Source: Betaproteobacteria bacterium (GTDB lineage: Bacteria > Pseudomonadota > Gammaproteobacteria > Burkholderiales > SG8-41). Taken from it: a stretch of DNA of 64,000 nt. Location of the stretch: positions 1 to 64,000 of the forward strand of contig JACPTK010000074.1 of the NCBI GenBank assembly GCA_016192825.1, given 5' to 3'. Every line of letters starts with the position of its first letter. Within the stretch, counting starts at the first letter, position 1. Of this stretch, positions 19,565 through 31,825 are shown piece by piece. Both the position numbers and the translations under genes were made by a program. The notes beneath the pieces were generated by a model. The model was not told the origin of the DNA and searched no databases. It saw only the letters and a list, made by a program, of their open reading frames with translations.

Positions 19565-20212
19565 ATGCCCTCGTTCGCGGATTTGCTTCTGCACACGGTC
19601 GACGGTGTTTTTGCGGTCGACGCGCGCCAGCGTATTGTTCTCTGGAATCCGGACTGCGAACAGCTGTTCGGTCTGCCAGTCCAGCAGGTGCTCGGACGGC
19701 CCTGCAGCGAGATCGTGCGGGGTAACAATCCGGTGGAGCAGCCGGTCTGTGGCGGCGGCTGCTGCATCGCGTCCTTTGCCGAGAACCCCAACATCCCCGG
19801 CATGTTTCCGTTGCGGGCGCGCGACGCCGCCGGTCGCGAGCTGCGCCTGACGGTCAGCCTGCTGCTGGTGCCCTCGACGCGCAAGGAGCAGCGGCTCTGC
19901 GTGCACCTGTTGCGCCGCGGTTCGATGACGGACCCGTTGCTGGCGTTGCAGGACGACGAGCGCTCGACGCGCGCGATGCCGGCGCGCAAAGCCGCGGACG
20001 ACGTCCTCCCGGTCGGCGCCTGCGGCCTCACCAAACGTGAGCGCGAGATCCTCAATTTGCTGGCGGAAGGCCTGGCGGTGGGGGCGATTTCGCGGCTGAT
20101 GAAGATCAGCATCGTCACGGTCCGCAACCACGTGCAGCACATCGAGGCAAAGCTCGCGGTCCACAGCCAGGCGGAGGCCGTTGCCTACGCCTACCGCCAC
20201 AACCTCGCTTAA
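19565..20212 (+). CDS. PAS-LuxR transcriptional regulator with Cys cluster
   Basis: This 215-residue regulator joins an N-terminal PAS sensor (DGVFAVDARQRIVLWNPDCE through about residue 115) to a C-terminal LuxR/GerE helix-turn-helix (residues about 150-212, LTKREREILNLLAEGLAVGA with VTVRNHVQHIEAKL). The PAS domain carries Cys31, Cys47 and a CGGGCC cluster (Cys62, 66, 67), which could ligate a metal or Fe-S centre or react with persulfide. There is no receiver domain, so it should sense its signal directly. It stands first in the sulfur-trafficking island, with an FNR-type box upstream, and is the natural candidate for control of the genes after it. Confidence 0.82.
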   Translation: MPSFADLLLHTVDGVFAVDARQRIVLWNPDCEQLFGLPVQQVLGRPCSEIVRGNNPVEQPVCGGGCCIASFAENPNIPGMFPLRARDAAGRELRLTVSLLLVPSTRKEQRLCVHLLRRGSMTDPLLALQDDERSTRAMPARKAADDVLPVGACGLTKREREILNLLAEGLAVGAISRLMKISIVTVRNHVQHIEAKLAVHSQAEAVAYAYRHNLA

Positions 20213-20283
20213 CGCGACGTCGATACAAAGCGGTGGGAGCCCGCCAGGCAGTGAGCCAACCTTTTTCACGGGGAGCCAAAGTG

Positions 20284-20562
20284 ATGGCGCAACCGAAAAA
20301 GATCGCGGTGGTGGTGCGGGGCCGGGAGAGCGAGGCGCTGCGGATGGCGCTTGGCCTCACGCTGATGGACGACGTGGTCGACGTGTACGTCCTCGACCAC
20401 CGTCTTGCCGGCGCGGACGAGGACCTGATGAACCTCGATCTCATGGGCGAGGTCGGCATCAAGGTCTACTCCAACCATCCTGACGACCCGCACGCGCAGC
20501 ACCGCCCGACCGAAGAGATCGCCCGCCAGCTGCTCGAATACGATCACGTCCTGCCGTACTAA
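20284..20562 (+). CDS. DsrE-like small protein
   Basis: The product is 92 residues. KKIAVVVRGRESEALRMALG followed by DVVDVYVLDHRL fits the alternating strand-helix start of the DsrE/DsrF/TusD fold, which in sulfur oxidisers accepts and passes on sulfur as a Cys persulfide. The protein has no Cys at all, so it cannot carry a persulfide itself and may be a structural or regulatory partner. The start ATG 20284 follows GGGGAGCCAAAGTG. It lies between the regulator and a second DsrE-like gene, and precedes the TGATG-N6-CATCA promoter. The fold call is by pattern only. Confidence 0.6.
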   Translation: MAQPKKIAVVVRGRESEALRMALGLTLMDDVVDVYVLDHRLAGADEDLMNLDLMGEVGIKVYSNHPDDPHAQHRPTEEIARQLLEYDHVLPY

Positions 20563-20575
20563 CGCGTCCCTCACC

Positions 20576-20620
20576 TGATGCAAATGCATCATTCTCAACT
20601 CTAGGCCGGCCCCCTATATT
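20576..20620 (+). promoter_or_regulatory. TGATG-N6-CATCA palindrome plus -10 box, copy 1
   Basis: The palindrome at 20576-20591 reads TGATGCAAATGCATCA and is followed by TTCTC. A -10-like TATATT lies at 20615-20620, 34 bp from palindrome centre to hexamer centre. The same palindrome, with the same TTCTC tail and the same 34-bp distance, occurs upstream of the rhodanese gene (30685-30729). It is a likely activator site near -42 for the gene starting at 20650. Confidence 0.65.
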
Positions 20621-20649
20621 GGCCCTGGGAAAGGGCGATTGGGGCACCC

Positions 20650-20955
20650 GTGTCGAGACTCGGCATTCTCGTAAACACCGACCGGCACCTGAAGCATCTC
20701 CTGGGCTTCACTCGAGCGGCTTTGGCGGCGGGGCACGAGGTCATCATATTTGTCATGGACGGGGGCACCCGGCTGCTGCGGGATGCCGGGCTGCAGGGCC
20801 TGGCCGGGCTCCCGGGCGTATCCCTCAGCTTATGCGATCACAGCGCCAAGCGGCACGGTGTCGACATCGAGGGGCTGCCGGCGGCAGTCGTGCGCGGCAG
20901 CCAACTGAACAACGCCATGATGAATCACCAGGCCGAGCGGGTGATCGTGCTCTAG
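20650..20955 (+). CDS. DsrE/DsrF-family protein
   Basis: The 101-residue product starts at GTG 20650 and reads SRLGILVNTDRHLKHLLGFT, then AALAAGHEVIIFVMDGGTRL and LSLCDHSAKRHGVDIEGLP. This is a typical DsrE fold with a single Cys near residue 63, in the place where DsrE/TusD family members bind persulfide. The C-terminus is VRGSQLNNAMMNHQAERVIV plus Leu. Its TAG stop (20953-20955) is supplied by the first bases of an inserted repeat element, so a few native residues may be lost. It probably handles sulfane sulfur in the cytosol with TusA (24706) and the mini DsrH-like protein. Confidence 0.75.
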   Translation: MSRLGILVNTDRHLKHLLGFTRAALAAGHEVIIFVMDGGTRLLRDAGLQGLAGLPGVSLSLCDHSAKRHGVDIEGLPAAVVRGSQLNNAMMNHQAERVIVL

Positions 20956-21158
20956 GAGTTTGTCGGACTTGGCGCCGACAAACTCCTAATGCAAAACCGC
21001 CAGCTGACTTACAACAGAGTCGAGTGAAAAGCGTGTTCTATCCACCAGGAAGTGCAGGAACAGCGGCGAATTCAGGTATTTCGAATCCAATGCTGTCGTT
21101 TGCCTGCGGGCGGTTTTGCGTAAGGAGTGTGTCGGGGCATAGCGCGACACACCCCTAG
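20952..21158. mobile_element. MITE/REP-like element A
   Basis: The element is bounded by CTAG on both sides (20952-20955 and 21155-21158). Its left hairpin has arms TAGGAGTTTGTCGG (20953-20966) and CCGACAAACTCCTA (20975-20988). GCAAAACCGCC follows at 20991-21001, then about 100 bp, GGCGGTTTTGC at 21109-21119 and a right hairpin (GTGTGTCG/CGACACAC) to 21157. No coding frame is seen. It separates two sulfur-relay genes and provides the stop codon of the left one. Confidence 0.8.
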
Positions 21159-21186
21159 GCCGGCTCGTGCATTGGAGGAGCGCGAC

Positions 21187-21357
21187 ATGCGTGTGCTTCA
21201 TTTGCTGAATGACGGGCCGGAGGTGGCATGTGCCGAGCTTCTCAGGCTGCAAAGCGCGGAGCGCGAGGTCGAGGTGATCGATCTATCGCAGGCGGAAATC
21301 GATTACGAGATGCTGATCGAAAAGATCTTCGCCAGCGACCAAGTGGTCTCGTGGTGA
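21187..21357 (+). CDS. Mini DsrH/TusB-like protein (56 aa)
   Basis: The protein is only 56 residues: it starts MRVLHLLNDGPEVACAELLR and ends IFASDQVVSW. MxxLHLLN and the acidic C-terminal helix followed by VVSW resemble DsrH/TusB, but those are about 95-100 residues. The stop is clean and GGAGG stands just before the start, so this is a compact protein, not a frameshift product. There is one Cys (residue 15). It follows element A and precedes the GT39 gene. It could form a small sulfur-relay complex with the DsrE-like proteins. The family link is tentative. Confidence 0.6.
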   Translation: MRVLHLLNDGPEVACAELLRLQSAEREVEVIDLSQAEIDYEMLIEKIFASDQVVSW

Positions 21358-21464
21358 CGATGAGCGCTGCGGCGGGCTTTGGCGTGACGCCCGTGCGTGA
21401 TCGCCGGGCCGCACGCTCGCACCGGCTGCCTCCGTGACCGGGATGGACATGAGGCTGGAGTTGC

Positions 21465-23240
21465 ATGCCAACGCACGGGAGGCGCATGAACGGCACCCAG
21501 GCGCGGAGCGGGATCCGGCGGCACGACACGTCCGCGTTGTCGTTTCGTCGGGCCGGCGCGGATTCCGGGGAGGCGCTCGCTTCGCTGCAGTGCGCGCTCG
21601 TCGCCCTCCTGGCGCTGTCGGCTGTTGCGCTGCTCTTTCTGCTGCGAGGGCTCGACGACAACCGTCTGGTGAGCTGGCGCTGGGTGTTCGCGCCCTCCGA
21701 CCTGCTCCCGCTCCTGTCGATCCTCGCGCTCGGTCTGTCTCTCGCTTGGTGGGCTTCGCGCATGCCGTGGAATGCGCGCCCCGCAGTTCCGCTACTCGGC
21801 CTCTTTGCGTTTCTCGGCTGCATGCCGCTCTGGAGCGAACCGGAAGTGATCGTGGACGCCGCACGCTATTTCGTGCAGGCCAAGCACCTCGCGCTCTACG
21901 GGATCAGCCATTTTGCGAGCGAGTGGGGCCGGCAGATACCGGCCTGGACCGACCTTCCGCTGGTGCCCTTCCTCTACGGCCTGCTGTTCAGCTTCGCGGG
22001 CGAAACCCGGCTCGCCATTCAGATCTTCAACTCGCTGCTCCTCGCCGGGACCGTCGTCCTGACCTACCGGATCGGGAATGCTCTGTGGGACCGGCCGACG
22101 GGCATGTGCGGAGCCGTGCTGCTCCTCGGCATGCCGTACCTGCTCACCCAGGTCCCCCTCATGCTCGTCGATGTGCCCGCCGTGTTCTTCCTCACGCTGG
22201 CTGCGTATGCCGCGATCGCGGCTACCGAGCGGGGTGGGCGTGTGCGGCTCCTGGCTGCGGCGGTGGCGCTCGCGCTGGCGGCGCTCACCAAATACTCCGC
22301 CTGGATTGCGCTCGCGTTTCCGCCGATTCTGGCGCTATTCTGCTCCCGCGGCGAGCGGCGCCCGGCGCTCGCGCGCGCCGCGGCAATCGTACTGGGAGCG
22401 ATGGCGCTCGCCGGCGCCGTCCTGCTCGCGAAAGCGGAGGTCATTGCCGGCCAGATCGCGCTGCTGTGGAGCTACCAGCTGCCCGCGCTCGAGCGCTGGC
22501 AGGAGGGCCCGGTCTCGACTTTCCTGTTCCAGATCCACCCCTTTGTCACGCTCGCGGCGGCAGGCTCGATCGTGCTGGCGATCCTCCAACGAGATTCGCG
22601 TTACGCTGCGATCGCTGCGATCGCGCTGCTCGCGCTTGCGCTCGGCGGCAGGCGCATCCGCTACCTCGTCATTGCGATGCCGATGCTGGCCCTCGCGGCC
22701 GCGTACGGGCTGCGCGTGCTCCGCCAAATCCCGACACGCCAGTTTGTCGCGTCGTGCGCGGCGGTTTCGGCGCTGGCGGTGGCCTACACCGGCTATCTGC
22801 CGTTCCTGCGCGAAACGAGCGCGGAAAACCTCAAACAGGCGGGCGCGTTGCTCGACGCCATGAGCGGCGACGCGGTCGAGGTCATCGTGCTGCCGGCGAC
22901 GCGCTCCAGCGTCAATCCGGCGGTGGCCATTCCGCTGCTGGACCTCCACACGCACAAGCGCGTGATCTATCGGCGCGACCTGAGCCCGTTGCCGGCGCCC
23001 GAGCCCGCCGTGCGGGTGGTCTCGCCGGTGCGTTTCACCTGGGAATACCCGGAGGCGCCCTTTTTGCTCGGGCCGCACGAGCAGCGGGCGCCGGTGGTGC
23101 TGGTGATGAGCGCGCCCGATCAGTCCCTGTCCCGTGCTGTGGCAAGCCGGCTCGTGGGCTACGTAAAGTTGCGCGAACTGGCGGTGCGCGATCCGGTGTT
23201 CCGCTTCCAGACCCTCGTGCGGGTCTATCAACCGACATGA
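21465..23240 (+). CDS. GT39-type (PMT/ArnT-like) membrane glycosyltransferase
   Basis: This 591-residue membrane protein has about ten to twelve hydrophobic helices between residues 45 and 430 and a hydrophilic C-terminal domain. The first loop carries WSEPEVIVDAARYFVQAKHL, in the place of the acidic catalytic loop of dolichyl/undecaprenyl-phosphate sugar transferases. Such enzymes move a sugar from a polyprenyl carrier to lipid or protein on the periplasmic side. The acceptor is unknown. An overlapping frame at 21434-23269 lacks membrane segments and is a shadow. It is the only glycan gene on the plus strand of the island; a GT2 lies at 29621. Confidence 0.82.
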   Translation: MPTHGRRMNGTQARSGIRRHDTSALSFRRAGADSGEALASLQCALVALLALSAVALLFLLRGLDDNRLVSWRWVFAPSDLLPLLSILALGLSLAWWASRMPWNARPAVPLLGLFAFLGCMPLWSEPEVIVDAARYFVQAKHLALYGISHFASEWGRQIPAWTDLPLVPFLYGLLFSFAGETRLAIQIFNSLLLAGTVVLTYRIGNALWDRPTGMCGAVLLLGMPYLLTQVPLMLVDVPAVFFLTLAAYAAIAATERGGRVRLLAAAVALALAALTKYSAWIALAFPPILALFCSRGERRPALARAAAIVLGAMALAGAVLLAKAEVIAGQIALLWSYQLPALERWQEGPVSTFLFQIHPFVTLAAAGSIVLAILQRDSRYAAIAAIALLALALGGRRIRYLVIAMPMLALAAAYGLRVLRQIPTRQFVASCAAVSALAVAYTGYLPFLRETSAENLKQAGALLDAMSGDAVEVIVLPATRSSVNPAVAIPLLDLHTHKRVIYRRDLSPLPAPEPAVRVVSPVRFTWEYPEAPFLLGPHEQRAPVVLVMSAPDQSLSRAVASRLVGYVKLRELAVRDPVFRFQTLVRVYQPT

Positions 23241-23265
23241 GCGTCACCGCCCGAAGGGGCATGCC

Positions 23266-24690
23266 ATGAGTGAAGCCAAGAGGAAATTCTGGGCGTTTGC
23301 CATCGTCGCAACCCTGGTGCTGATCAGCGTTGCGACTTACGCCTATCACGAGTTCTACCTTTATCTGTCGGTCTACCTGTGGTTCGGCTTCATCTACGGG
23401 ATGTGCCTGCAGTACGGCCGCTTCTGCTTCTCTTCGGCATTCCGCGACCTGTTCGCCGTGGGCGTACCGCGCATGGCCGTAGGCATCATGATCGCGATCG
23501 CGTTCTTCGCACTGGTGGGCGCCTTTGTCAGCGCCACGGGGCTCAGCACGTTCCACTCCGCGCCCATCGGCCTGCACGCGGTGATCGCCGGTTTCATCTT
23601 CGGGGTCGGCATGTGCTTCGCGGGCGGCTGCGCCTCGGGCTCGATGTACAAGACCGGCGAAGGCAACATGAATGCGGCGCTGGTGGTGGTTTCCATCAGC
23701 GTCACGCAGGCGGTCTTCGTGGACATCGGCGGCTGGGCGAACGCGCTGGTGCCCGCCTCCTGGGCGAAATCGGCCTCCGAAAAAGGGCTGCCCGCCTCGA
23801 TCAACGTGGCCGACGGCTGGGTGGACCAGTATCTGGCCGGCTACGTGTGGGACCAGCCCGTATTGAGTTTCGCCACGATGCTGGGCTGGACCGACCAGTC
23901 GGTCATGGGCGCCTTCCTCGGCAACTTTCTGGTCGGCGTCGCGCTGCCCGGTGCGGCGCTGCTTGTCGTCGTCTACTTCTTCTGGTCGCGGCGCACCTTC
24001 ATGAAGAAGCGGCTCGCGGCAGCCAGCGCTCGCCCGCGCCTCACCGACGAGCTTGCCGGCTACTGGGCCATGGTCGTCGCCTCCAAGCGCACGGCGATTG
24101 CGGGACTTGCCCTCGGCATCGCGGCGGGCCTGCACATGTATGCGAGCCAGGGGCTGCGCGTGAAGTACGGGGTGCGCAACGCCGGCCCGTTGCTCGAACG
24201 CATGGGGTTCGACTTCGGCCTCTCGGTGAACGGCACGGTATTCGATCCCGGCTACTGGTACGTGACCACGCAGGAGGCGCAGTGGGTCGGCTGGGTGTTC
24301 CACAAGCTCGGCTGGAACCAGATGGACAACATCTTCTTCGGCTTCAACAACGGCATTCCCAATCCGCTGATCAACCCCGCCGACTGGATGTCGATCGCGC
24401 TCTTCGGCGGCGCGGCGGTGATGGCGCTGCTCCACAATGAATTCAAGTTCAAGAAGCCGACCCTCGAGACCGCGATCTGGGCGATCATCGGCGGCGCGCT
24501 CATGGGCATCGGCTCGCGGCTCGGGCTCGGCTGCAATGTGGGCGCCTTCTTCGTGCGCGTATCCCAGGGCGATCCGTCGGGCTGGGTTTTCGGAATCGGC
24601 ATGGTTGGCGGCGCCTATCTCGGGGTGAAATTCTTCAACTGGTGGACCGAGCGGCGGATGGCGCGGCAGTTCGCCGCGACCATAACTTGA
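23266..24690 (+). CDS. YeeE/YedE-family thiosulfate/sulfur transporter (TsuA-like)
   Basis: This 474-residue membrane protein belongs to the YeeE/YedE family, whose member TsuA takes up thiosulfate through a relay of conserved Cys residues. The matching motifs are present: MCLQYGRFCFSSAFRD, VGMCFAGGCASGSMYKTGEG and, near the end, GSRLGLGCNVGAFFVRVSQG with DPSGW. A large periplasmic loop (residues about 290-370, GVRNAGPLLERMGFDFGL) is longer than in short YeeE proteins. It stands 15 bp before tusA, the usual cytosolic partner, which supports import of thiosulfate or sulfane sulfur and handover to TusA. The start ATG 23266 lies in a short gap after the GT39 gene. Confidence 0.88.
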   Translation: MSEAKRKFWAFAIVATLVLISVATYAYHEFYLYLSVYLWFGFIYGMCLQYGRFCFSSAFRDLFAVGVPRMAVGIMIAIAFFALVGAFVSATGLSTFHSAPIGLHAVIAGFIFGVGMCFAGGCASGSMYKTGEGNMNAALVVVSISVTQAVFVDIGGWANALVPASWAKSASEKGLPASINVADGWVDQYLAGYVWDQPVLSFATMLGWTDQSVMGAFLGNFLVGVALPGAALLVVVYFFWSRRTFMKKRLAAASARPRLTDELAGYWAMVVASKRTAIAGLALGIAAGLHMYASQGLRVKYGVRNAGPLLERMGFDFGLSVNGTVFDPGYWYVTTQEAQWVGWVFHKLGWNQMDNIFFGFNNGIPNPLINPADWMSIALFGGAAVMALLHNEFKFKKPTLETAIWAIIGGALMGIGSRLGLGCNVGAFFVRVSQGDPSGWVFGIGMVGGAYLGVKFFNWWTERRMARQFAATIT

Positions 24691-24705
24691 CGGAGGAAAT
24701 GCGCC

Positions 24706-24951
24706 ATGAAGTTCGAGAAGATGAGCGAGGGCCATTACCTGCTGGATGTGAAGGGCTACGTCTGCCCTCACCCGCAGCTCTACACCAAGAAGGCGCTCGA
24801 GCGGCTCAAGCCGGGCGAAATGCTGGAACTGCAGTTCGACAATCCGTCTTCCGGCGAGTCGATCGCCACCATGTGCGACAACACGGGCGACGAAATCCTC
24901 GACCGCAAGCAGGAGGCGGGCCTCTTTGTCTGGCACGTCCGCAAGACCTAG
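24706..24951 (+). CDS. tusA: TusA-family sulfur carrier protein
   Basis: This 81-residue protein carries sulfur as a persulfide. It shows LLDVKGYVCPHPQLYTKKAL with the CPxP motif (the Cys is the carrier residue), LKPGEMLELQFDNPSSGESI and a C-terminal LFVWHVRK strand, the full TusA fold. It is cytosolic. It is directly downstream of the YeeE-type transporter, a pairing known from thiosulfate uptake. GGAGG lies just upstream of the start. Its TAG stop (24949-24951) lies in the first bases of repeat element B, so the original C-terminus may have been a little different. Confidence 0.9.
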   Translation: MKFEKMSEGHYLLDVKGYVCPHPQLYTKKALERLKPGEMLELQFDNPSSGESIATMCDNTGDEILDRKQEAGLFVWHVRKT

Positions 24952-25158
24952 CAGCCCGTCGGACTTGGCGGCCCGACAGGCTGCTAAAAGCAAAACCGCC
25001 TGAGGATTTAGAATGAAGCTGAACCCAAAGACCCCTCCTGGCCCACCGTTAGAGACGGGAGCGGGACCGAATTCATATCTCTGCAGTCGTTTCTTGCCGT
25101 TTTCTTGCAGGCGGTTTTGCCATAGGAGTTTGTTGGCCCAAAGGCCGACAAATTCCTG
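24948..25158. mobile_element. MITE/REP-like element B
   Basis: It starts with CTAG (24948-24951), followed by a hairpin TAGCAGCCCGTCGG...CCCGACAGGCTGCTA (24949-24986). GCAAAACCGCC lies at 24990-25000, an about 110-bp core follows, then GGCGGTTTTGC at 25110-25120 and a right hairpin TAGGAGTTTGTTGG...CCGACAAATTCCTGA (25123-25158). The architecture is that of element A; the core sequence differs. It contains the tusA stop codon. Confidence 0.8.
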
Positions 25159-25174
25159 AAGCGAGGAGCGCGCC

Positions 25175-25360
25175 ATGCGCAATGTTCTGTGGACCATCTT
25201 CGCCATCGTGGGCGGCATCATGGGGTTTCTCATGGGCTACGCCACCGCGCCCATGATCGAGAGCGGCGTGCTCACCGGCCAGGGCGCGAAGCGCGCCACG
25301 AAGATCGAGGCCGGCAAGGAACTGGAGCAGTTCTACAAGGACCTCTACAAGGAGAGGTGA
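25175..25360 (+). CDS. Small single-helix membrane protein, paralogue 1
   Basis: The 61-residue protein has one membrane helix (MRNVLWTIFAIVGGIMGFLM, continuing GYATAP) and a polar C-terminal tail ending EQFYKDLYKER. No known family is recognised. The next gene encodes a similar protein: both carry GF(L/I)(M/V)GY at the end of the helix and a Tyr/Lys/Glu-rich C-terminus. GAGGAGCGCGCC stands before the start. One base separates its stop from the next start codon (25362), so the two are a translational unit. A role as transporter subunit or membrane anchor in the sulfur island is inference only. Confidence 0.65.
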   Translation: MRNVLWTIFAIVGGIMGFLMGYATAPMIESGVLTGQGAKRATKIEAGKELEQFYKDLYKER

Positions 25361-25361
25361 G

Positions 25362-25601
25362 ATGGCGCAGCAGGCCAACGCCAGCCTGGAACGCGATGCG
25401 GCCCGCGTCAGTTTGTGGGTCGCCATCATTTTCGCCGCGACCGTGTTGGGGTTTATCGTGGGATACGGCGTGTCCTCGCGCACGGGTGTGGAACCGGGCT
25501 ATTTCGACGCACCCGAGGCGGGCGGCTACGGTGTGGCGCCGAGCGCCGGGCCGAAGATGGGCGAGGACATGCGGAAGTACTACGAGGAACTCCTAAAGTA
25601 G
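25362..25601 (+). CDS. Small single-helix membrane protein, paralogue 2
   Basis: The 79-residue protein has a short polar N-terminus and one helix (SLWVAIIFAATVLGFIVGYG). A Gly/Pro/Tyr-rich linker follows (EPGYFDAPEAGGYGVAPSAG), and the tail ends MRKYYEELLK. It shares the GFIVGY motif and the YxxLxK-type tail with the preceding 61-residue protein. No database family is recognised. Both follow the YeeE-tusA pair after element B and precede the FAD oxidoreductase. Confidence 0.65.
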   Translation: MAQQANASLERDAARVSLWVAIIFAATVLGFIVGYGVSSRTGVEPGYFDAPEAGGYGVAPSAGPKMGEDMRKYYEELLK

Positions 25602-25672
25602 GACCCGGCCCCGCCGCGGCCTCTCTCCCGCCCATCGCCGGCGCCGGATCAACCTGATCGAAGAGTCGAGCG

Positions 25673-27070
25673 ATGGATGGCGATGTCCTCATCTGTGGCG
25701 GCGGGCTTGCCGGGCTGGCGGCCGGACACGCGCTGGCGCTCGCCGGGCGAGACGTAGTCGTGCTCGAGCGCGAGGCGCAGGTCGGCGGTCTCGCCCGCAC
25801 CATCGAGCATCGCGGCCAGCGCTTCGACCTCGGCGGGCACCGCCTGCTCACCGACAGCGCGCGGGTCTTGGAGCTCGTGCGCGAGGTGGTGCGCGAGCCA
25901 CTGCTGGCCGTGCCGAGGGCAAGCAAGATCCTGCTCGGCGGACGCTACGTCGACTACCCGCTGCGGCTGCTGAACGCCGCATCGGGGCTCGGCCCTGCGG
26001 CGACGCTGGGCGTGCTGTACGGCTACCTCGTCGCGCAGCTCGCGCACCGCCTGCGGCGGCGTGCCGTCATCTCGCTCGAGGACTGGGTCGTGTGCCACTA
26101 CGGCCGGCCATTGTTCGAGCTTTTCTTCAAGCCCTACAGCGAGAAGGTCTGGGGCCTCGACTGCACCCGCATCAGCGCCGACTGGGTGGCGCAGCGCATC
26201 CAGGGGCTGACGCTGGGCATGGCCATCCGGCGGACGCTGTCGCGCCCGGCGGCCAACGGCCCCCGCACCCTTGCCAGCGAATTCCTCTATCCTGCACGCG
26301 GCATCGGCAGCATCGCGGAGGGCCTGCGTGCGGAGATCGAGCAACACGGCCAAGTCCGCACAGACAGCCTCGTCACGCGTCTCGTGCATCGCGCTGGCCG
26401 CATCAAGCGCGTCGCGGTGCGCCATGGCGGCGCGAGCGCGTTCTACCGCGCGCAGGAGTTCATCTCGAGCCTGCCCCTGCCGGTCCTGGTGAGAAGGCTC
26501 TGGCCGCCGCCGCCGCCCCCGGTGCTCGAGGCCGCCGCCCGGCTGCGCTACCGCGACCTGCTGCTGGTGGCGGTCCGGCTCGGGCGCGAGCGCGCAACTG
26601 AACTGACCTGGATCTACGTTCCCGGGCGGGAGTTCTCCTTCGGAAGGGTGCACGAGCCGAAGAACTGGAGCCCGCAAATGGGGGCGGCGGGCGAGACGCT
26701 GCTCGTCGCCGAGCACTTCTGCTGCCGCGCCGACCCTGTGTGGCGGGCGGAAGATAGCGTGCTGCTGGAGCGCAGCATCGGCGAGCTCGCGGCGCTCGGA
26801 CTGATGCGGCGCGCCGATGTGCTCGACGGCCTGGTCGTGCGCGTGCCGTGCGCCTATCCGCTATTCGAGGTCGGCTACGCCGCGGCGTGCCGCGTGATCA
26901 CCGACTATCTCGCCGGCTTCGCCAACCTGCACGTCGTCGGGCGCACTGGCGCTTTCCGCTACTACAACATGGACCACGCCATCGAATCGGGCCTGGATGC
27001 CGCGGATGAAGTCCTTGCCCGCTTGAGCGCGCCGCGCGCGGCGCTGCTCCGCACCGGGACGCGCGCATGA
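25673..27070 (+). CDS. FAD-dependent amine oxidase/UDP-galactopyranose mutase-like protein
   Basis: This 465-residue flavoprotein starts with a dinucleotide-binding fold (DVLICGGGLAGLAAGHALAL), then GGLARTIEHRGQRFDLGGHR, the second FAD motif seen in protoporphyrinogen-oxidase-like and UDP-galactopyranose mutase-like enzymes. Further blocks are FELFFKPYSEKVWGLDCTRI, YPARGIGSIAEGLRAEIE and a C-terminal NLHVVGRTGAFRYYNMDHAI, where the FAD pyrophosphate is held. This pattern is common in proteins encoded beside glycosyltransferases and polysaccharide genes. The substrate is unknown. Its last four bases overlap the start of the radical SAM gene, so the two are coupled. Confidence 0.8.
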   Translation: MDGDVLICGGGLAGLAAGHALALAGRDVVVLEREAQVGGLARTIEHRGQRFDLGGHRLLTDSARVLELVREVVREPLLAVPRASKILLGGRYVDYPLRLLNAASGLGPAATLGVLYGYLVAQLAHRLRRRAVISLEDWVVCHYGRPLFELFFKPYSEKVWGLDCTRISADWVAQRIQGLTLGMAIRRTLSRPAANGPRTLASEFLYPARGIGSIAEGLRAEIEQHGQVRTDSLVTRLVHRAGRIKRVAVRHGGASAFYRAQEFISSLPLPVLVRRLWPPPPPPVLEAAARLRYRDLLLVAVRLGRERATELTWIYVPGREFSFGRVHEPKNWSPQMGAAGETLLVAEHFCCRADPVWRAEDSVLLERSIGELAALGLMRRADVLDGLVVRVPCAYPLFEVGYAAACRVITDYLAGFANLHVVGRTGAFRYYNMDHAIESGLDAADEVLARLSAPRAALLRTGTRA

Positions 27071-28536
27071 GGTGCGCGCTCATCATTCCCGCGTGGCTGC
27101 CGGAGGAAATTTTCTCCTCGCGCACCGCACCCTCGCAGGTGAATTACTGGCAGCCGCTTGGCACTCTTTATGTCGGCGCCTGTTTGCTCGAGGCCGGCCA
27201 CGACGTGAAATTGTTCAACGGCGCCTTTCTCACCCACGAGGAGATCCTGCGCCGCGTCGCGGCGTTCAAGCCGGAAGTGGCCGGCATCTACTCAACCGCC
27301 TTCGGCTGGCCCGGCGCGCAGAAAACGGCAGCCGACGTGAAGCGCATGGCTCCCGGTATCTTCGTCTGCGCCGGCGGCCCGTATCCGATCGCCGTACAAG
27401 ATCGCTGCCTCGCGAACGGCGGCGCGCCTCTCGACGCGGTGGTCACCGGCGAGGCCGAATACACCCTGGTCGAGATGCTCGACCGGATCGCGCGCGGCCG
27501 GGGACTGGAGGGCGTTCCCGGCGTCGCGTTCCGGCGGGGCGGGCGGATCATCAGGAACCCGCCCCGGCCGCTCATCGAGGACCTGGATGCGCTGCCGTTC
27601 CCCGCGCGCGCGCTGCTGGAAGGGGCGGAGCGCTACCTGCCGCCGCCCGCCACCTACCGGCGCGCGCCGGTCGCGACCCTGATCACCTCGCGCGGCTGCG
27701 ACCGCCGCTGTCTGTTCTGCTTCCAGATCGACCGCGCGCGCCAGGCAGGCCGCCGCGGCGTGCGCCTGCGCAGCGTGGAAAACGTGCTGCAGGAAATCGA
27801 GCTCTGCCTCGCGCAAGGCTACCGCGAAATCAAGTTTCTCGATGACTCCTTCGCCGCCGACTACGACCGCGCCATCCAGCTCTGCCAGGCGATCCGGGCG
27901 CGGCGGCTCGATTTCACGTGGTTCGCATCGGCCTGCGCCAACCAGGTGGATAAACCGTTGCTCGCGGCCATGCGGGAGGCCGGCTGCTGGGCGGTGCTGA
28001 TCGGCGCCGAGAGCGGCGTGCAGAAGAACCTCAACACCCTGCGCAAGGCCTGCACCCTGGGCCAGATCAGCCAGGCGGTGCGCGCGGCCAAGGATGCCGG
28101 GCTGCAGGTCAGCGCGCCGTTCGTCTTCGGCATCCCCGGCGAGACCTTCGCCGACGGATTGAAGACCATCGAGTTCGCGCTCGCGCTCGACCCCGATTTC
28201 GCGAACTTCCATTGCCTGACGCCGTTTCCCGGGACCGACCTCCACGACCGGTGCGCGGAATACGGCCAGCGCTCCGCGGACCTCGGGGACTACACCTACC
28301 AGGGCGCGGCCTTCGCGCCCCACACCCTGACGTGCGAGGAGATCCAGCAGTTGCGCCAGCTCGCGTTCCGGCGCTTTTATTCGCGGCCGTCGTTTCTGCT
28401 GCGCCGGCTGCGCCAGGTCCGCAGTGTGCGCGAGATTCGGGCCGCGGCGCTCGGCCTGAAGAGCCTGTTCTGGCTGTGGGCCGGGAAGCGTCTGTTCTAC
28501 CGCGGCAAGAGCGAGGCGGCCATACCCCCCGGTTGA
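27067..28536 (+). CDS. B12-binding-domain radical SAM protein
   Basis: The 489-residue protein has an N-terminal cobalamin-binding-type Rossmann domain (residues about 1-140, LGTLYVGACLLEAGHDVKLF) and a radical SAM barrel with the 4Fe-4S motif CDRRCLFC (Cys211, 215, 218). A conserved FLDDSFAADYDRAIQLCQAI and a long C-terminal helical part follow. Relatives perform methylations or ring rearrangements, for example in lipid or hopanoid modification; the substrate cannot be named. The start ATG overlaps the flavoprotein stop. Its end overlaps the end of the convergent radical SAM gene by 40 bp. Confidence 0.85.
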   Translation: MRCALIIPAWLPEEIFSSRTAPSQVNYWQPLGTLYVGACLLEAGHDVKLFNGAFLTHEEILRRVAAFKPEVAGIYSTAFGWPGAQKTAADVKRMAPGIFVCAGGPYPIAVQDRCLANGGAPLDAVVTGEAEYTLVEMLDRIARGRGLEGVPGVAFRRGGRIIRNPPRPLIEDLDALPFPARALLEGAERYLPPPATYRRAPVATLITSRGCDRRCLFCFQIDRARQAGRRGVRLRSVENVLQEIELCLAQGYREIKFLDDSFAADYDRAIQLCQAIRARRLDFTWFASACANQVDKPLLAAMREAGCWAVLIGAESGVQKNLNTLRKACTLGQISQAVRAAKDAGLQVSAPFVFGIPGETFADGLKTIEFALALDPDFANFHCLTPFPGTDLHDRCAEYGQRSADLGDYTYQGAAFAPHTLTCEEIQQLRQLAFRRFYSRPSFLLRRLRQVRSVREIRAAALGLKSLFWLWAGKRLFYRGKSEAAIPPG

Positions 28537-29624
28537 GCGCGCCCGAGGCGCAGGTATTCGCACGCGAGCGCCGGATACAGCCGCGGATTGAAGAGAATGT
28601 TGGTGATGAAGTAGCACTCGTGGGTGCAGTGGCAGCGCCCCTCGGCGATTCCGCCGAGGATCGCGCGCGCGCGGACGCCATCGAGCACCCGGCGCGCATC
28701 GTAGCCGTGCTCGCGCAGGTTTCCGAGGCTCGAGGACAGCATTTCGCAGGCGAACAGCTCACCACTCTCGTTGAGCACGAGGTTGAGCCGTCCGGCGTAG
28801 CACGGAATCTGCCGTTTGTGCTCGGTGAGCGTGTCATGGATCAGCCGCCGCTGCAGTATGTCCTGCGCCGCCTTGAGCCGCGCTCCCGCGAAGCGGTAGA
28901 GCGGGTCTGAGCCGCCCGTGAGCCCCGCCTCCAATCGCGCCGCGGCGCGACGGTATGCGGCGGGATCGACCTCCTTGCACCAGGCATCGCGTGGATCGCC
29001 GCGCACGAGCGAAATGGTGTGGGCGCGAAGGCCCGGCAGCGTACGCACGAATTCGATGAGTGCATCCAGCCGGTCCTGGTTGCCGCGCAGCAGGACGGTG
29101 TTGACCCCGAGCTCGAAATTCGGGTAGCGATTGAGCAGCCGCGCCAGCAAGTGATAGGTCCGCACCGCCCTCTCGAAGCTGCCGGGGGTGGCGCGAAGCC
29201 GGTCGTGTTCCTCGCCGATGCCGTCGAGTGAGACCTTGACGACGACGGTGCTGTTGCGGCAATGAGCGAGAATCCGTTCTGTCCGGTCCGCGACCAGCTC
29301 GGGAAGCAGGCCGTTCGTGGAATAGAGCATGATCGCGGGGCGGTTTTCGGCGTAAAACACGCGGCTCAGTTCCACAAGGTCCCTGCGCAGATACGGCTCG
29401 CCGCCGGAGAAGGCGAGCCACAGCAGCCGCCCGAGCGACGGTGCGGTCTGGCGGACTTCCTCCAGCGAAAACTCTTCGGCCCGGGGCTCGGCTCCGTCCG
29501 TGTCATTCAGGTAGAAGCAGAACGGGCAACGCGCGTTGCAGCGGCGCGTCACGAAGAAAGTGAGCTGGATCGGCCGCCGCTTCCAGACGAGCGATGGCAG
29601 ATGGCGCAGCGGCGAATACCTCAT
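28497..29624 (-). CDS. Radical SAM protein with SPASM-like C-terminal Cys cluster
   Basis: This 375-residue protein has the radical SAM motif FVTRRCNARCPFCFYLND (Cys29, 33, 36) and WLAFSGGEPYLRRDLVELSR. The C-terminal region has IPCYAGRLNLVLNESGELFA then Cys, and GRCHCTHECYF, a layout typical of SPASM/twitch domains that hold auxiliary Fe-S clusters. Such proteins modify peptides or small molecules. I use ATG 29624; the frame is open much further upstream without a plausible N-terminus. It overlaps the GT2 gene start-to-stop by four bases (29621-29624), so the two are co-translated on the minus strand, opposite to the main island. Confidence 0.85.
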   Translation of the reverse strand: MRYSPLRHLPSLVWKRRPIQLTFFVTRRCNARCPFCFYLNDTDGAEPRAEEFSLEEVRQTAPSLGRLLWLAFSGGEPYLRRDLVELSRVFYAENRPAIMLYSTNGLLPELVADRTERILAHCRNSTVVVKVSLDGIGEEHDRLRATPGSFERAVRTYHLLARLLNRYPNFELGVNTVLLRGNQDRLDALIEFVRTLPGLRAHTISLVRGDPRDAWCKEVDPAAYRRAAARLEAGLTGGSDPLYRFAGARLKAAQDILQRRLIHDTLTEHKRQIPCYAGRLNLVLNESGELFACEMLSSSLGNLREHGYDARRVLDGVRARAILGGIAEGRCHCTHECYFITNILFNPRLYPALACEYLRLGRAQPGGMAASLLPR

Positions 29625-30631
29625 CGGGTCCCCCTCGGGCGGCAGGCCCCGGCGAGGAAAAGCGCCGCGCCGCCGAAGGCGCCCGCGCCCACGGCGAGCG
29701 GATAGACGAAGAAGTAGTAGATGCCAGCGACCGCGGCAAACCGCCGGCCGCCGGCCACGCGAAACCCCTTGAGCAGCCCGCGACTGACGAGGAGGTTGCC
29801 GGCGAAAGCGGCAGCCGCGACCCCGAGCCAGCCCGCCGCCCCCGTCAGCAGGTAGGCGCCCACACACGGCAGGCTGATGAAGTACGACGCTACGTTGGCC
29901 TTGAGTTCGTGGGAGGCGGTCCCGGAGTCAACGAGCAGATCACGGTTGCGCAGCGAGTAGAGGGTCCAGTACATTGCCTTGACGCAGGCATTGTGCAAGG
30001 AGCGGAACAGGTTGAAGTTAAAAACGTGCCGCACCTGGATCGTGGGGTCGATCACGAGCCGGCACCCGGTGCGGCGCAGGCGGTGGCTGAATTCCACGTC
30101 CTCGAGAATCGGCAGGAAGCCTTCGGCAAAGCCGCCGTGCCGATGGAACGTCCCGGCGCGGATCGCCAGCGCGTGGGTGGCCACGTAATCGGGAGCATCG
30201 GCGCGCTTGGTCTCGAAATGGTGGATGAAGACCGACTGGAACCGGCTGAAGAAGGTGTCATCATGGGGCAGCGGGGTGTAGGTGCCGCCCGCGACGGTCG
30301 CCGGCTTGCGTCTGGAGAGCGCACGGCAGGCTGTGGCGAGGGTATCCTCGCGCGGCAGGCAGTCGGCGTCGGTGAAAAACAGGAGGTCGCCGCGTGCATG
30401 CGCCGCCCCTGCGTTTCGCGCCCCGGCGGCACCGTGGCGGCGGGCGAGCCGGATGAGCCGGCACGGGAAGCGCTGAATGGCCTCAACCGAGCCGTCGGCC
30501 GATGCGTCGTCCACCACGATCACCTCGAAGCTGGGGTAGCGCGAGGCGAACGTGGCCTCAAGGCAGCGGGCGATCGTGTTCGCGCCGTTGCGGTTCGGGA
30601 TGATCACCGAGATGAACGGTAGGGAGTTCAA
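29621..30631 (-). CDS. GT2-family glycosyltransferase with membrane tail
   Basis: This 336-residue GT-A glycosyltransferase shows ISVIIPNRNGANTIARCLEA, VDDASADGS and the metal-binding FFTDADCLP (DxD-type), then GGFAEGFLPILEDVEFSHRL. The C-terminal third has two or three hydrophobic segments (ASYFISLPCVGAYLL; GIYYFFVYPLAVGAGAFGGA). It probably adds a sugar to a lipid carrier at the inner membrane. It is the first gene of a two-gene minus-strand unit with the SPASM radical SAM gene, and its upstream region is shared with the divergent rhodanese gene. Confidence 0.87.
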   Translation of the reverse strand: MNSLPFISVIIPNRNGANTIARCLEATFASRYPSFEVIVVDDASADGSVEAIQRFPCRLIRLARRHGAAGARNAGAAHARGDLLFFTDADCLPREDTLATACRALSRRKPATVAGGTYTPLPHDDTFFSRFQSVFIHHFETKRADAPDYVATHALAIRAGTFHRHGGFAEGFLPILEDVEFSHRLRRTGCRLVIDPTIQVRHVFNFNLFRSLHNACVKAMYWTLYSLRNRDLLVDSGTASHELKANVASYFISLPCVGAYLLTGAAGWLGVAAAAFAGNLLVSRGLLKGFRVAGGRRFAAVAGIYYFFVYPLAVGAGAFGGAALFLAGACRPRGTR

Positions 30632-30682
30632 AGCGCGGGTCCACTTCCCTGCAAGATGATTATCGCCCCCCGCCCGCCGCGA

Positions 30683-30729
30683 AATGATGCAAATACATCA
30701 TTCTCCCGGATCGACGCCACGGGTCTAAT
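30683..30729 (+). promoter_or_regulatory. TGATG-N6-CATCA palindrome plus -10 box, copy 2
   Basis: AATGATG-CAAATA-CATCATT at 30683-30702 is a perfect palindrome in its arms, followed by CTC as in copy 1 (20576). A -10-like TCTAAT lies at 30724-30729, 34 bp from palindrome centre to hexamer centre, identical to copy 1. It faces the rhodanese gene (30791). The GT2 gene starts on the other side at 30631, so both could be affected. Confidence 0.65.
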
Positions 30730-30790
30730 TCAAGCGGTATTGGGTCGAGTTTTACGCGCTGGAGGCGCTTTTGAGGAGGAGGGCTAAACC

Positions 30791-31825
30791 ATGAACGGAA
30801 AGCTGATCTATCGATACGGCATCGCGGGATGGCTGGCGCTGGTAGTGGTCGCGTGGGCCCCGGCGGCCTTCGCGAAATGGGCCAATCCGCAGTTGCTGCT
30901 TACGCCGGAACAACTGCAGAAGAACATCGAGAAGTCCGATTGGGTAGTGGTGGACTGCCGCGATCTGGATGCCTATCTCAAGGGGCACATCCCGGGGGCG
31001 GTCAGCCTAGGCAAGAAATGCGGCACGGCCTTGCGCGACCCGACGGCGCGGATTTTCAAGGACGTGAAAAAGTACGAGGGCCTCTTGGGCAAGGTAGGCG
31101 TCGGCAACAACACCCATGTAGTTTTCTATCATGGGGACATGAGGGATTTGACGGACGCTACCGTCGGTTTCTGGGTGATGGAATATCTCGGCCATGACGG
31201 CAAGGTGCACGTGCTCAACGGCGGCCTGGACGCCTGGCGCAAAGCGGGCCAGCGGCTCGACGACAAGCCGGCCAAGAAGGACTCCACGACCTTCAAAGCC
31301 AAGGTCGTCAAGAGCCGTTACGCCTCCACCGACGAGATCCTGAAGATTGCGAAGGGGCAAGTGAAAGGCGTGCAGCTTATCGACTCCCGGACAGTGAAGG
31401 AGCACAAGGGCGAGGACATCCGGGCGCTGCGCGGCGGGCATGTGCCCAACACCACGCTCAATGTTTCGCACGTGGACACCCTTCCCAAGGCGAAGGACCC
31501 CAAGACCGACAAGATGGTGGGGATCGCATATCTCGACCCGGATGTGGCGGCCACGGCGTTCGACAAGCAGGACAAGAGCAAGCGCACCATCGCCTACTGC
31601 CAGACCGGAACGCGCTCGACGCTCACCTACTTGCAACTACGGCTCATGGGATTCAAGGATCCCGCCAACTGGGACGACTCGTGGCACGTTTACGGCTCGA
31701 CCGTGGCCTATCCGGCTGCCGATGAGCAGTGGTACAACTTCGCCAAGGCCAACTCGGGGCTGAGGAGCCTCGAAAACAAGATCAAGGCACTCGAGGCCGC
31801 CGCCGCGAAGCCGGCGGGCAAGTAG
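30791..31825 (+). CDS. Periplasmic two-domain rhodanese (sulfurtransferase)
   Basis: This 344-residue exported sulfurtransferase has a signal peptide (YGIAGWLALVVVAWAPAAFA) and then two rhodanese domains. The first has VVVDCRDLDAYLKGHIPGAV with no Cys in its active loop. The second has LIDSRTVKEHKGED and the catalytic loop YCQTGTRSTLTYLQ. The C-terminus ends in an Ala/Lys-rich helix. It would move sulfane sulfur from thiosulfate or persulfides in the periplasm, upstream of uptake by the YeeE-type transporter. GAGGAGGAGGG precedes the start. It shares its palindromic promoter site with the DsrE gene at 20650 and is followed by a strong terminator. Confidence 0.88.
   Translation: MNGKLIYRYGIAGWLALVVVAWAPAAFAKWANPQLLLTPEQLQKNIEKSDWVVVDCRDLDAYLKGHIPGAVSLGKKCGTALRDPTARIFKDVKKYEGLLGKVGVGNNTHVVFYHGDMRDLTDATVGFWVMEYLGHDGKVHVLNGGLDAWRKAGQRLDDKPAKKDSTTFKAKVVKSRYASTDEILKIAKGQVKGVQLIDSRTVKEHKGEDIRALRGGHVPNTTLNVSHVDTLPKAKDPKTDKMVGIAYLDPDVAATAFDKQDKSKRTIAYCQTGTRSTLTYLQLRLMGFKDPANWDDSWHVYGSTVAYPAADEQWYNFAKANSGLRSLENKIKALEAAAAKPAGK

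Follow-up and report, generated by a model that had tools for sequence, protein, structure and literature searches.

A conserved sulfur-import locus of a betaproteobacterial genome carries glycosyltransferase and radical SAM genes and a small YG-motif membrane protein

The 64,000-nucleotide stretch of DNA analyzed here (the window) is contig 23 of a 5.1 Mb betaproteobacterial genome in 123 contigs. Between positions 19565 and 31825 it holds genes for sulfur transfer, glycosyl transfer and radical S-adenosylmethionine (SAM) chemistry which, on the evidence below, very probably form one system. A Cys-rich PAS-LuxR regulator (19565..20212, + strand; GerE 54 bits, PAS 34 bits; 7 Cys counted by eye) is encoded upstream of the block. 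From 20281 to 28536 all genes lie on the + strand, spaced by about 230 nt or less. They encode a small protein without Cys (20281..20562; no Pfam match), a DsrE-like sulfurtransferase (20650..20955; PF02635, 25 bits against a cut-off of 22.7), a mini DsrH-like protein of 56 aa (21187..21357; no Pfam match), a GT39/PMT_2 membrane glycosyltransferase of the polyprenyl-phosphate-sugar dependent type (21465..23240; PMT_2 43 bits), a YedE/YeeE-family sulfur transporter (23266..24690; PF04143, 139 bits) and the sulfur carrier TusA with a CPHPQ motif (24706..24951; PF01206, 62 bits). Two one-helix proteins follow, sm61 (25175..25360) and the YG-motif protein sm79 (25362..25601; TGVEPGYFDAPEAGGYG), then an FAD protein resembling UDP-galactopyranose mutase (UGM) (25673..27070; NF005548, 404 bits against a cut-off of 389) and a B12-type radical SAM enzyme of the AprD4/HpnJ/BchE kind (27067..28536; PF04055 and PF02310). 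The gaps are 15 nt for YedE-TusA, 1 nt for sm61-sm79, 71 nt for sm79-FAD and -4 nt for FAD-B12 radical SAM. On the - strand, the genes of a SPASM/twitch-like radical SAM enzyme (28497..29624; PF04055) and a GT2 glycosyltransferase (29621..30631; PF00535, 101 bits) overlap by 4 nt. Directed away from this pair is the gene of a two-domain rhodanese (30791..31825, + strand; PF00581 in 2 stretches), predicted to be periplasmic by an N-terminal signal-like segment recognized by eye. Each gene listed for the block in an earlier note on this DNA was recovered as an open reading frame (ORF) at its position; the SPASM gene starts at 29624 and not at 29867 as that note had it.

A genome-collection scan with YedE gave 132 relatives; the analysis covers the best 80 (64-90% identical), and loci and genomes are referred to by L and G numbers. 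By title, these 80 come from alpha-, beta- and gammaproteobacteria, Nitrospirota, Rokubacteria, Desulfobacterota and Acidobacteria, and the closest named relatives among them are betaproteobacterial metagenome-assembled genomes (MAGs). The GT39 gene was found near YedE in 60 of 64 loci with enough flank. Among 48 well-flanked loci, the B12 radical SAM gene was nearby in 40, drawn from several phyla, as were the SPASM gene and the GT2 gene (39 each without a weak match, at L044 and L031, respectively). The FAD gene was nearby in 33 of the 48, L011 and L012 among them being non-orthologous. TusA was present in 74 of 75 loci (47 of the 48), and rhodanese accompanied YedE in 44 of the 48.

All eight genomes in which the B12 gene was not nearby (L031, L039, L040, L044, L054, L059, L062 and L066) hold a strong orthologue elsewhere, as determined by whole-genome search (E <1e-255). 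In six of them the unlinked gene lies behind a second YedE, 49-53% identical to that of the window and with its own TusA; in a seventh it lies behind a more distant YedE (L107), and in the eighth the contig ends before that point (L104). Second clusters that combine YedE, TusA and GYG repeats with a B12 radical SAM gene were seen in the same genomes. In total, 22 genomes were searched for the B12 gene and 18 matched, including one that carries it close to YedE on the opposite strand (L080) and two with gene fragments at contig ends, probably from a broken main locus (L013, L061). No match was obtained for L008, L024, L042 and L083, whose contigs end inside the cluster; a partial B12 copy was found beside the SPASM gene in the L008 genome. 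The SPASM gene was detected in 23 of 27 genomes searched, in 22 at E <1e-170. GT2 adjoins SPASM in all seven loci examined where SPASM sits on a contig other than that of YedE; five of these pairs lie away from FAD, B12 and YedE, and two stand at contig ends beside rhodanese.

Within the family to which the genome belongs, the halves share a patchy distribution. Among 74 family genomes, four carry YedE and five the B12 radical SAM gene; all four are among the five, and in the remaining one a YedE fragment sits at a contig edge (Fisher p 4e-6, uncorrected for relatedness). Since the family set includes the genomes of L004 and L067, it is not fully independent of the YedE scan. In 299 Pseudomonadota genomes drawn across the phylum, the B12 gene was found once, in the window's own genome. 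Against a single system stand the eight of 48 loci without a nearby B12 gene, the genomes in which SPASM was missing from the 27 searched (G304, G378, G390 and G393), a B12-bearing cluster without a YG protein (G390), and the MAG origin that the titles give for almost every genome. Based on cross-phylum synteny, whole-genome co-occurrence even when unlinked and the shared patchy distribution in one family, we concluded with high confidence that the two halves form one system. The earlier note had suggested as much, and the linkage across phyla, with the B12 gene in 40 of 48 loci, bears it out. Regular separation of the halves, which that note had named as the contrary outcome, was not found: the halves are unlinked at eight of 48 loci, and in seven of these eight genomes the B12 gene still stands beside a second YedE-type gene, the eighth being cut by a contig end.

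A third cluster type was seen at L105:7118-7345 and L107:5924-6148, where a protein of 74-75 aa ending in CCI replaces TusA; the YedE of this type is distant (34-36% identity over a fifth of its length) and lies beside the FAD and B12 radical SAM genes.

Pairwise-distance correlations were calculated from 19 to 73 loci per pair after identity, coverage and stop filters, uncorrected for species phylogeny. GT39, the FAD protein, the B12 radical SAM enzyme, the SPASM enzyme and GT2 correlated among themselves with r values of 0.61-0.83 (0.83 for GT39 and FAD, 0.79 for GT39 and GT2), compared to 0.33-0.53 for the same five enzymes against YedE. YedE correlated with TusA (r 0.65) and with rhodanese (r 0.64). 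The rhodanese gave r 0.06 against both GT39 and GT2, and r 0.37 against TusA, no better than several cross-block pairs. These values hint that the system has two sub-units, each inherited as a whole, one for uptake and one of five enzymes for modification, with GT39 perhaps belonging to the latter although its gene is placed between those of the DsrH-like protein and YedE.

The sulfur half of the block is a YTD cluster, made up of YedE, TusA and a DsrE-like trio; the cluster is reported to have been defined by Umezawa 2020 and has lately been given the name yedE-tusA-dsrEFH type II. In the window, a YedE-family gene stands beside tusA, and the DsrE-like protein (PF02635) carries the putative sulfur-transfer Cys at position 62, invariant in 12 of 12 aligned sequences. 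YedE is 65-87% identical in a 17-row cross-phylum alignment, and the CPHPQ motif of TusA is present in 77 of 77 homologues. The published definition names YedE, TusA, DsrE and two to three hypothetical proteins (PMC12998232). As described in excerpts of PMC9751629, PMC12998232, PMC13047784 and PMC13293266, such clusters share with the window the arrangement of YedE, TusA and DsrE with two further small proteins, the conserved Cys of the DsrE-like protein and carriers in Nitrospirota, Desulfobacterota and Pseudomonadota, whereas the glycan and radical SAM genes present at the window locus are not part of the published definition. For cable bacteria, the trio was reported in 2026 to be a DsrEFH type II sulfurtransferase which exchanges sulfur with TusA and transfers it to DsrC in vitro; its DsrF- and DsrH-fold subunits were recognized through structure prediction (PMC13293266, in part).

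The DsrE-like protein of the window aligned with the type I DsrE of its own genome at 89% probability (hhalign). By this alignment, made to type I DsrE and not to the published protein, Cys62 would be the equivalent of the published Cys67. Assignment of the two other trio members as DsrF or DsrH by profile failed, neither having a Pfam or profile match. By hhalign, the 20281 protein showed no similarity to the DsrF of the genome or to the DsrE-like alignment, and the mini DsrH-like protein reached only 6% against the DsrH of the genome; the names DsrF- and DsrH-like are thus given to the 20281 and 21187 proteins by position and size and by nothing else. Both are conserved around YedE, the former in 45 and the latter in 41 of 54 loci, compared to 45 of 54 for the DsrE-like protein. 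The PAS-LuxR protein is likely a regulator of the locus. A homologue was found upstream of YedE in 25 of 54 loci having at least 6 kb upstream; 24 of the 25 carriers are titled Proteobacteria or a subgroup thereof, and the remaining one is L053 (Nitrospirae). Genes for a sensor kinase and an NtrC-like regulator (annotation by eye) lie close to the cluster in 20 loci, including L054 and L047, and also in L107; 11 of 12 such loci named are without the PAS-LuxR gene, the exception being L008.

Within the five-enzyme block, UGM gave the best PDB profile matches to the FAD protein (140 bits), and an alignment to UGM 4u8l places the GGH loop and R175, Y315 and R325 of the window protein at the His loop and the active-site Arg and Tyr positions of the FAD fold. 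We take these residues to be the equivalents of UGM R182, Y317 and R327 (numbers by our own count). Since the protein misses the cut-off of the bacterial UGM equivalog TIGR00031 (47.9 vs 303.75 bits), it is classed as UGM-like only; the relationship stands at about 140 bits, and NCBIfam puts the protein in the unnamed family PRK07208.1-4. The B12 radical SAM enzyme shares B12-binding and radical SAM domains and a CxxxCxxC motif (C211/215/218, invariant in 26 of 26) with AprD4, HpnJ and BchE, and AprD4 is its best PDB profile match (122 bits). However, it stays under the cut-offs of all 25 NCBIfam families shown, far so for equivalogs such as HpnJ (TIGR03471; 192.5 vs 577.6 bits).

In the SPASM-like enzyme (28497..29624), Cys 30, 34, 37, 276, 294, 334 and 338 as well as Cys123 are invariant (19 of 19), and G289, between the cluster cysteines, is nearly so. 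The SPASM motif consists of CxxxCxxC, C-X(9-15)-G-X4-C and further Cys; the window enzyme has Cys of this pattern and is called twitch-like because they are fewer than in a full SPASM domain. SkfB, CteB and anSME, all modifiers of peptides or proteins, head the matches of its profile and of its structure model (predicted local distance difference test, pLDDT, 88); further matches are BlsE, ranked third in the fold search, viperins, MoaA and DesII. The best NCBIfam match of GT2 is MftF, below cut-off (118.2 vs 280 bits), and the SPASM enzyme scored 57.8 vs 265 bits for MftC. Mycofactocin loci share the conserved SPASM-GT2 gene pair and a small Tyr-containing protein, which in mycofactocin has the Tyr at its C-terminus; here, in contrast, the MftC and MftF cut-offs are missed and the small protein is membrane-bound with an internal YG. 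MftB, MftD and MftE had no match in the family-scan tables shown for the scanned locus proteins. HpnJ, MftC/MftF and bacterial UGM were ruled out as identities of the enzymes by the missed family cut-offs. The GT39 sequence profile had no match in the PDB, and an AlphaFold model (pLDDT 88) was therefore used; its nearest folds are ArnT (5f15/5ezm) and other polyprenyl-phosphate-sugar or oligosaccharide transferases. In the underlying alignments, L012 was omitted from A3 and A5 and L074 from A5 on account of in-frame stops, A2 includes the L012 FAD protein as one non-orthologous row, and several A3 rows (e.g. L006, L009, L014 and L043) bear extra residues ahead of the true start.

The small proteins sm61 and sm79 are paralogues that fall into a single BLAST cluster; by charge and hydropathy, each has one N-terminal helix and a tail predicted to face outside. 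A YG motif was present in the tail of 56 of 56 sm79 homologues counted and in none of 62 sm61 homologues. The first count is biased upward, since the sm79 query itself bears YG and therefore favours motif-bearing matches, and it leaves out L021 and L078 (sm61 having been taken as the ORF there), rows lacking a full ORF and divergent forms missed by tblastn. Among 63 sm79 proteins with the longer motif, YG is preceded by Gly in 49, by Ala in 8 and by Ser in 6. Of 12,869 six-frame ORFs from 100 loci and the window, 12 had at least three dense [GA]YG motifs, with 3-12 GYG each; L115, L120 and L122 among these loci duplicate L080, L004 and L067. All 12 ORFs are located directly behind TusA or just ahead of the FAD gene. 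Eight belong to second clusters and three to main clusters (L032, L034 and L053), all 11 beside the B12 radical SAM gene; at L063, the contig ends soon after the repeat ORF. Further GYG and DYG repeats occupy the same place in L104 and L117.

Two side observations concern these proteins. In the sm79 of L031, L040, L044, L051, L060 and L072, AYG (EKxEAPAYG) replaces GYG, and in these six clusters the B12 radical SAM gene lies outside the stretch read, on another contig of the same genome. In 42 loci with sm61 (up to four of them scored by eye), identity of the rhodanese to that of the window is 53-78%, compared to 36-43% in nine loci without sm61, a covariation that may reflect subclade or interaction.

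The genome appears to be of the Dsr/Sox sulfur-oxidizer type. A single locus on another contig (G000:C59, L144) carries dsrA, dsrB, dsrE, dsrF, dsrH and dsrC, all above cut-off, followed by a DsrM-like gene below cut-off, and soxB is present on G000:C110. Thus, a type I DsrEFH set and the type II-like set of the window occur in the same genome, a combination suited to side-by-side study. As given in part of PMC13293266, only 4.7% of type II genomes have oxidative-type dsrAB. In a survey covering the own genome and those of 49 loci picked for spread from the 80, dsrA was found in 43 of 50 carrier genomes (39 above cut-off) and SoxB above cut-off in 32 of 50, the SoxB model giving a below-cut-off signal in 5 of 14 control genomes. 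Dissimilatory use fits carriers with these frequencies, and sulfur import by the locus probably serves dissimilation. The earlier note had described the block as not simply a classic oxidation locus, without DsrAB or Sox genes in the window. This holds for the window, where nothing to the contrary was seen in a partial annotation, but the emphasis shifts, as the genome has both elsewhere and the sulfur half is the described YTD type.

Taken together, we lean towards the interpretation that the locus encodes an extended YTD-type sulfur-import system whose glycan and radical SAM accessory enzymes modify a periplasmic part, most likely sm79. That the sulfur set travels with five enzymes and a YG membrane protein across phyla suggests that sulfur import here depends on a specifically modified component beyond the inner membrane. 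Rhodanese and YedE would gather sulfane sulfur on the outside and pass it inward, where TusA could accept it at its CPHPQ motif and hand it via the DsrEFH type II-like trio to the Dsr oxidation pathway encoded elsewhere; transfer along TusA, DsrEFH and DsrC is published for a relative (PMC13293266, in part). GT39, the UGM-like FAD protein, the B12 radical SAM enzyme, the SPASM-like enzyme and GT2 would act as an obligate accessory block. From the families of these enzymes, we infer that they may make a polyprenyl-linked sugar, probably of furanose type and radical-edited, which GT39 might move onto an acceptor at the periplasmic face. The modified sm79 tail might then hold or organize zero-valent sulfur at the mouth of YedE. 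Sm79 is a tentative candidate for the acceptor; the strongest hint comes from the conserved YG and the GYG repeats beside TusA or FAD.

Several points speak against a modified sm79. Sugars, lipids or porphyrins, and not peptides, are the substrates of the enzymes most closely related to the B12 radical SAM enzyme, and ArnT, the nearest fold to the GT39 model, has a lipid acceptor. GYG repeats may be mere structural sequence, and no gene for a peptide-recognition (RRE) protein was noticed, no model search being aimed at it. The overall reading is also weakened by the query bias in the YG count, the uncorrected distance correlations and the low value for rhodanese and TusA.

A different explanation, which we regard as unlikely but of some weight, is that the enzymes make a special glycolipid, with a modified sugar on polyprenol or another lipid, needed as membrane lipid or lipid cofactor by YedE or the sulfur stage, with sm79 and sm61 as unmodified partners of YedE. 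The affinities of the B12 radical SAM enzyme to AprD4 and HpnJ, of the FAD enzyme to UGM and of the GT39 model to ArnT are consistent with it, as is the tighter covariation of the five enzymes with each other than with YedE. However, a glycolipid leaves unexplained why YG is found in 56 of 56 sm79 tails counted and why it is tandemly repeated at loci of which 11 of 12 hold the B12 gene within the stretch, and the top SPASM neighbours modify peptides or proteins, BlsE, viperins, MoaA and DesII notwithstanding.

The YG proteins might instead form a coat that holds zero-valent sulfur at the membrane by its sequence alone, as in sulfur globules, while the glycan enzymes act on a different target. 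In PMC10386293, the envelope proteins of sulfur globules are characterized as periplasmic, similar to keratin or plant cell wall proteins and to some degree repetitive, with evenly spaced prolines. By description, the YG proteins share with them an outside-facing, repetitive and partly Pro-spaced sequence and a tie to sulfur oxidation, but they are membrane-anchored beside an importer. The single-motif sm79 of the window is short and acidic, unlike a repetitive coat protein, and 11 of 12 repeat forms share a stretch with the B12 radical SAM gene. We consider this explanation improbable.

A more specific version of sm79 modification, which we hold to be more doubtful still, is a hitherto undescribed maturation like that of ribosomally synthesized and post-translationally modified peptides (RiPPs). 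The SPASM-like and B12 enzymes would rebuild the YG of sm79, GT2 and GT39 would glycosylate it, and the tail would bind sulfane sulfur and feed YedE. By analogy with the radical SAM splicease that excises tyramine at XYG motifs and accepts GYG (PMC10533398, in part), YG could be turned into, for example, reactive keto-type or cross-linked residues. The spliceotide system PlpXY described there shares with the window a radical SAM enzyme and a YG with variable preceding residue (GYG, AYG, SYG, DYG), here found in all 56 sm79 tails counted; the likeness is a motif match alone, set against PlpX by description. No PlpY-like partner was noticed among the conserved gene clusters printed, neither PlpX nor PlpY having served as query sequence. 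If such a maturation took place, the tandem GYG repeats of the second clusters would represent multi-site versions of a sulfur-capture device.

It is very improbable that the sulfur genes supply sulfur for a thio-sugar or another sulfur-containing product of the glycan enzymes, as the earlier note had supposed for imported sulfur. The physical linkage of both halves would fit, but no enzyme or pattern in favour was found: family scans gave no LipA-, BioB- or MiaB-type sulfur inserter, MiaB-type models matching the B12 enzyme weakly and below cut-off, and dsrA in 43 of 50 carriers together with the biochemistry of DsrEFH type II (PMC13293266, in part) indicates oxidation. A chance neighbourhood, also raised there and compatible with halves unlinked in a minority of genomes, is rejected as practically negligible by the cross-phylum synteny, the co-occurrence when unlinked and the background of one in 299 genomes, unless MAG binning created these in many independent projects.

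Of the combined system, the sulfur half is known (YTD or type II) and the conserved extension by five enzymes and a YG protein appears to be new. The main texts of PMC9751629, PMC12998232, PMC13047784 and PMC13293266 make no mention of a glycosyltransferase or radical SAM enzyme, and no fitting description of the combination was found in the open-access PMC literature; outside the YTD field, a Fervidobacterium study mentions YedE, TusA and radical SAM once each (PMC13157175). YTD or DsrEFH type II is discussed as a marker of sulfur disproportionation. For cable bacteria and many sulfate reducers, it is also discussed as the sulfur-transfer link that had been missing. The accessory module and the YG protein provide named candidate parts for how sulfur reaches and crosses the membrane. 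If true, this would, to our knowledge, tie radical SAM and glycan chemistry to dissimilatory sulfur uptake for the first time.

The genome has two more YedE-family genes, at G000:C20:36844-37806 and G000:C32:1457-2461, both only distantly similar to that of the window. A universal-stress-type protein, not seen in the block of the window, is encoded near the cluster in 34 loci (annotation by eye) and is positioned between the YG protein and the FAD gene at L048:3285-3752 and L103:7373-7834.

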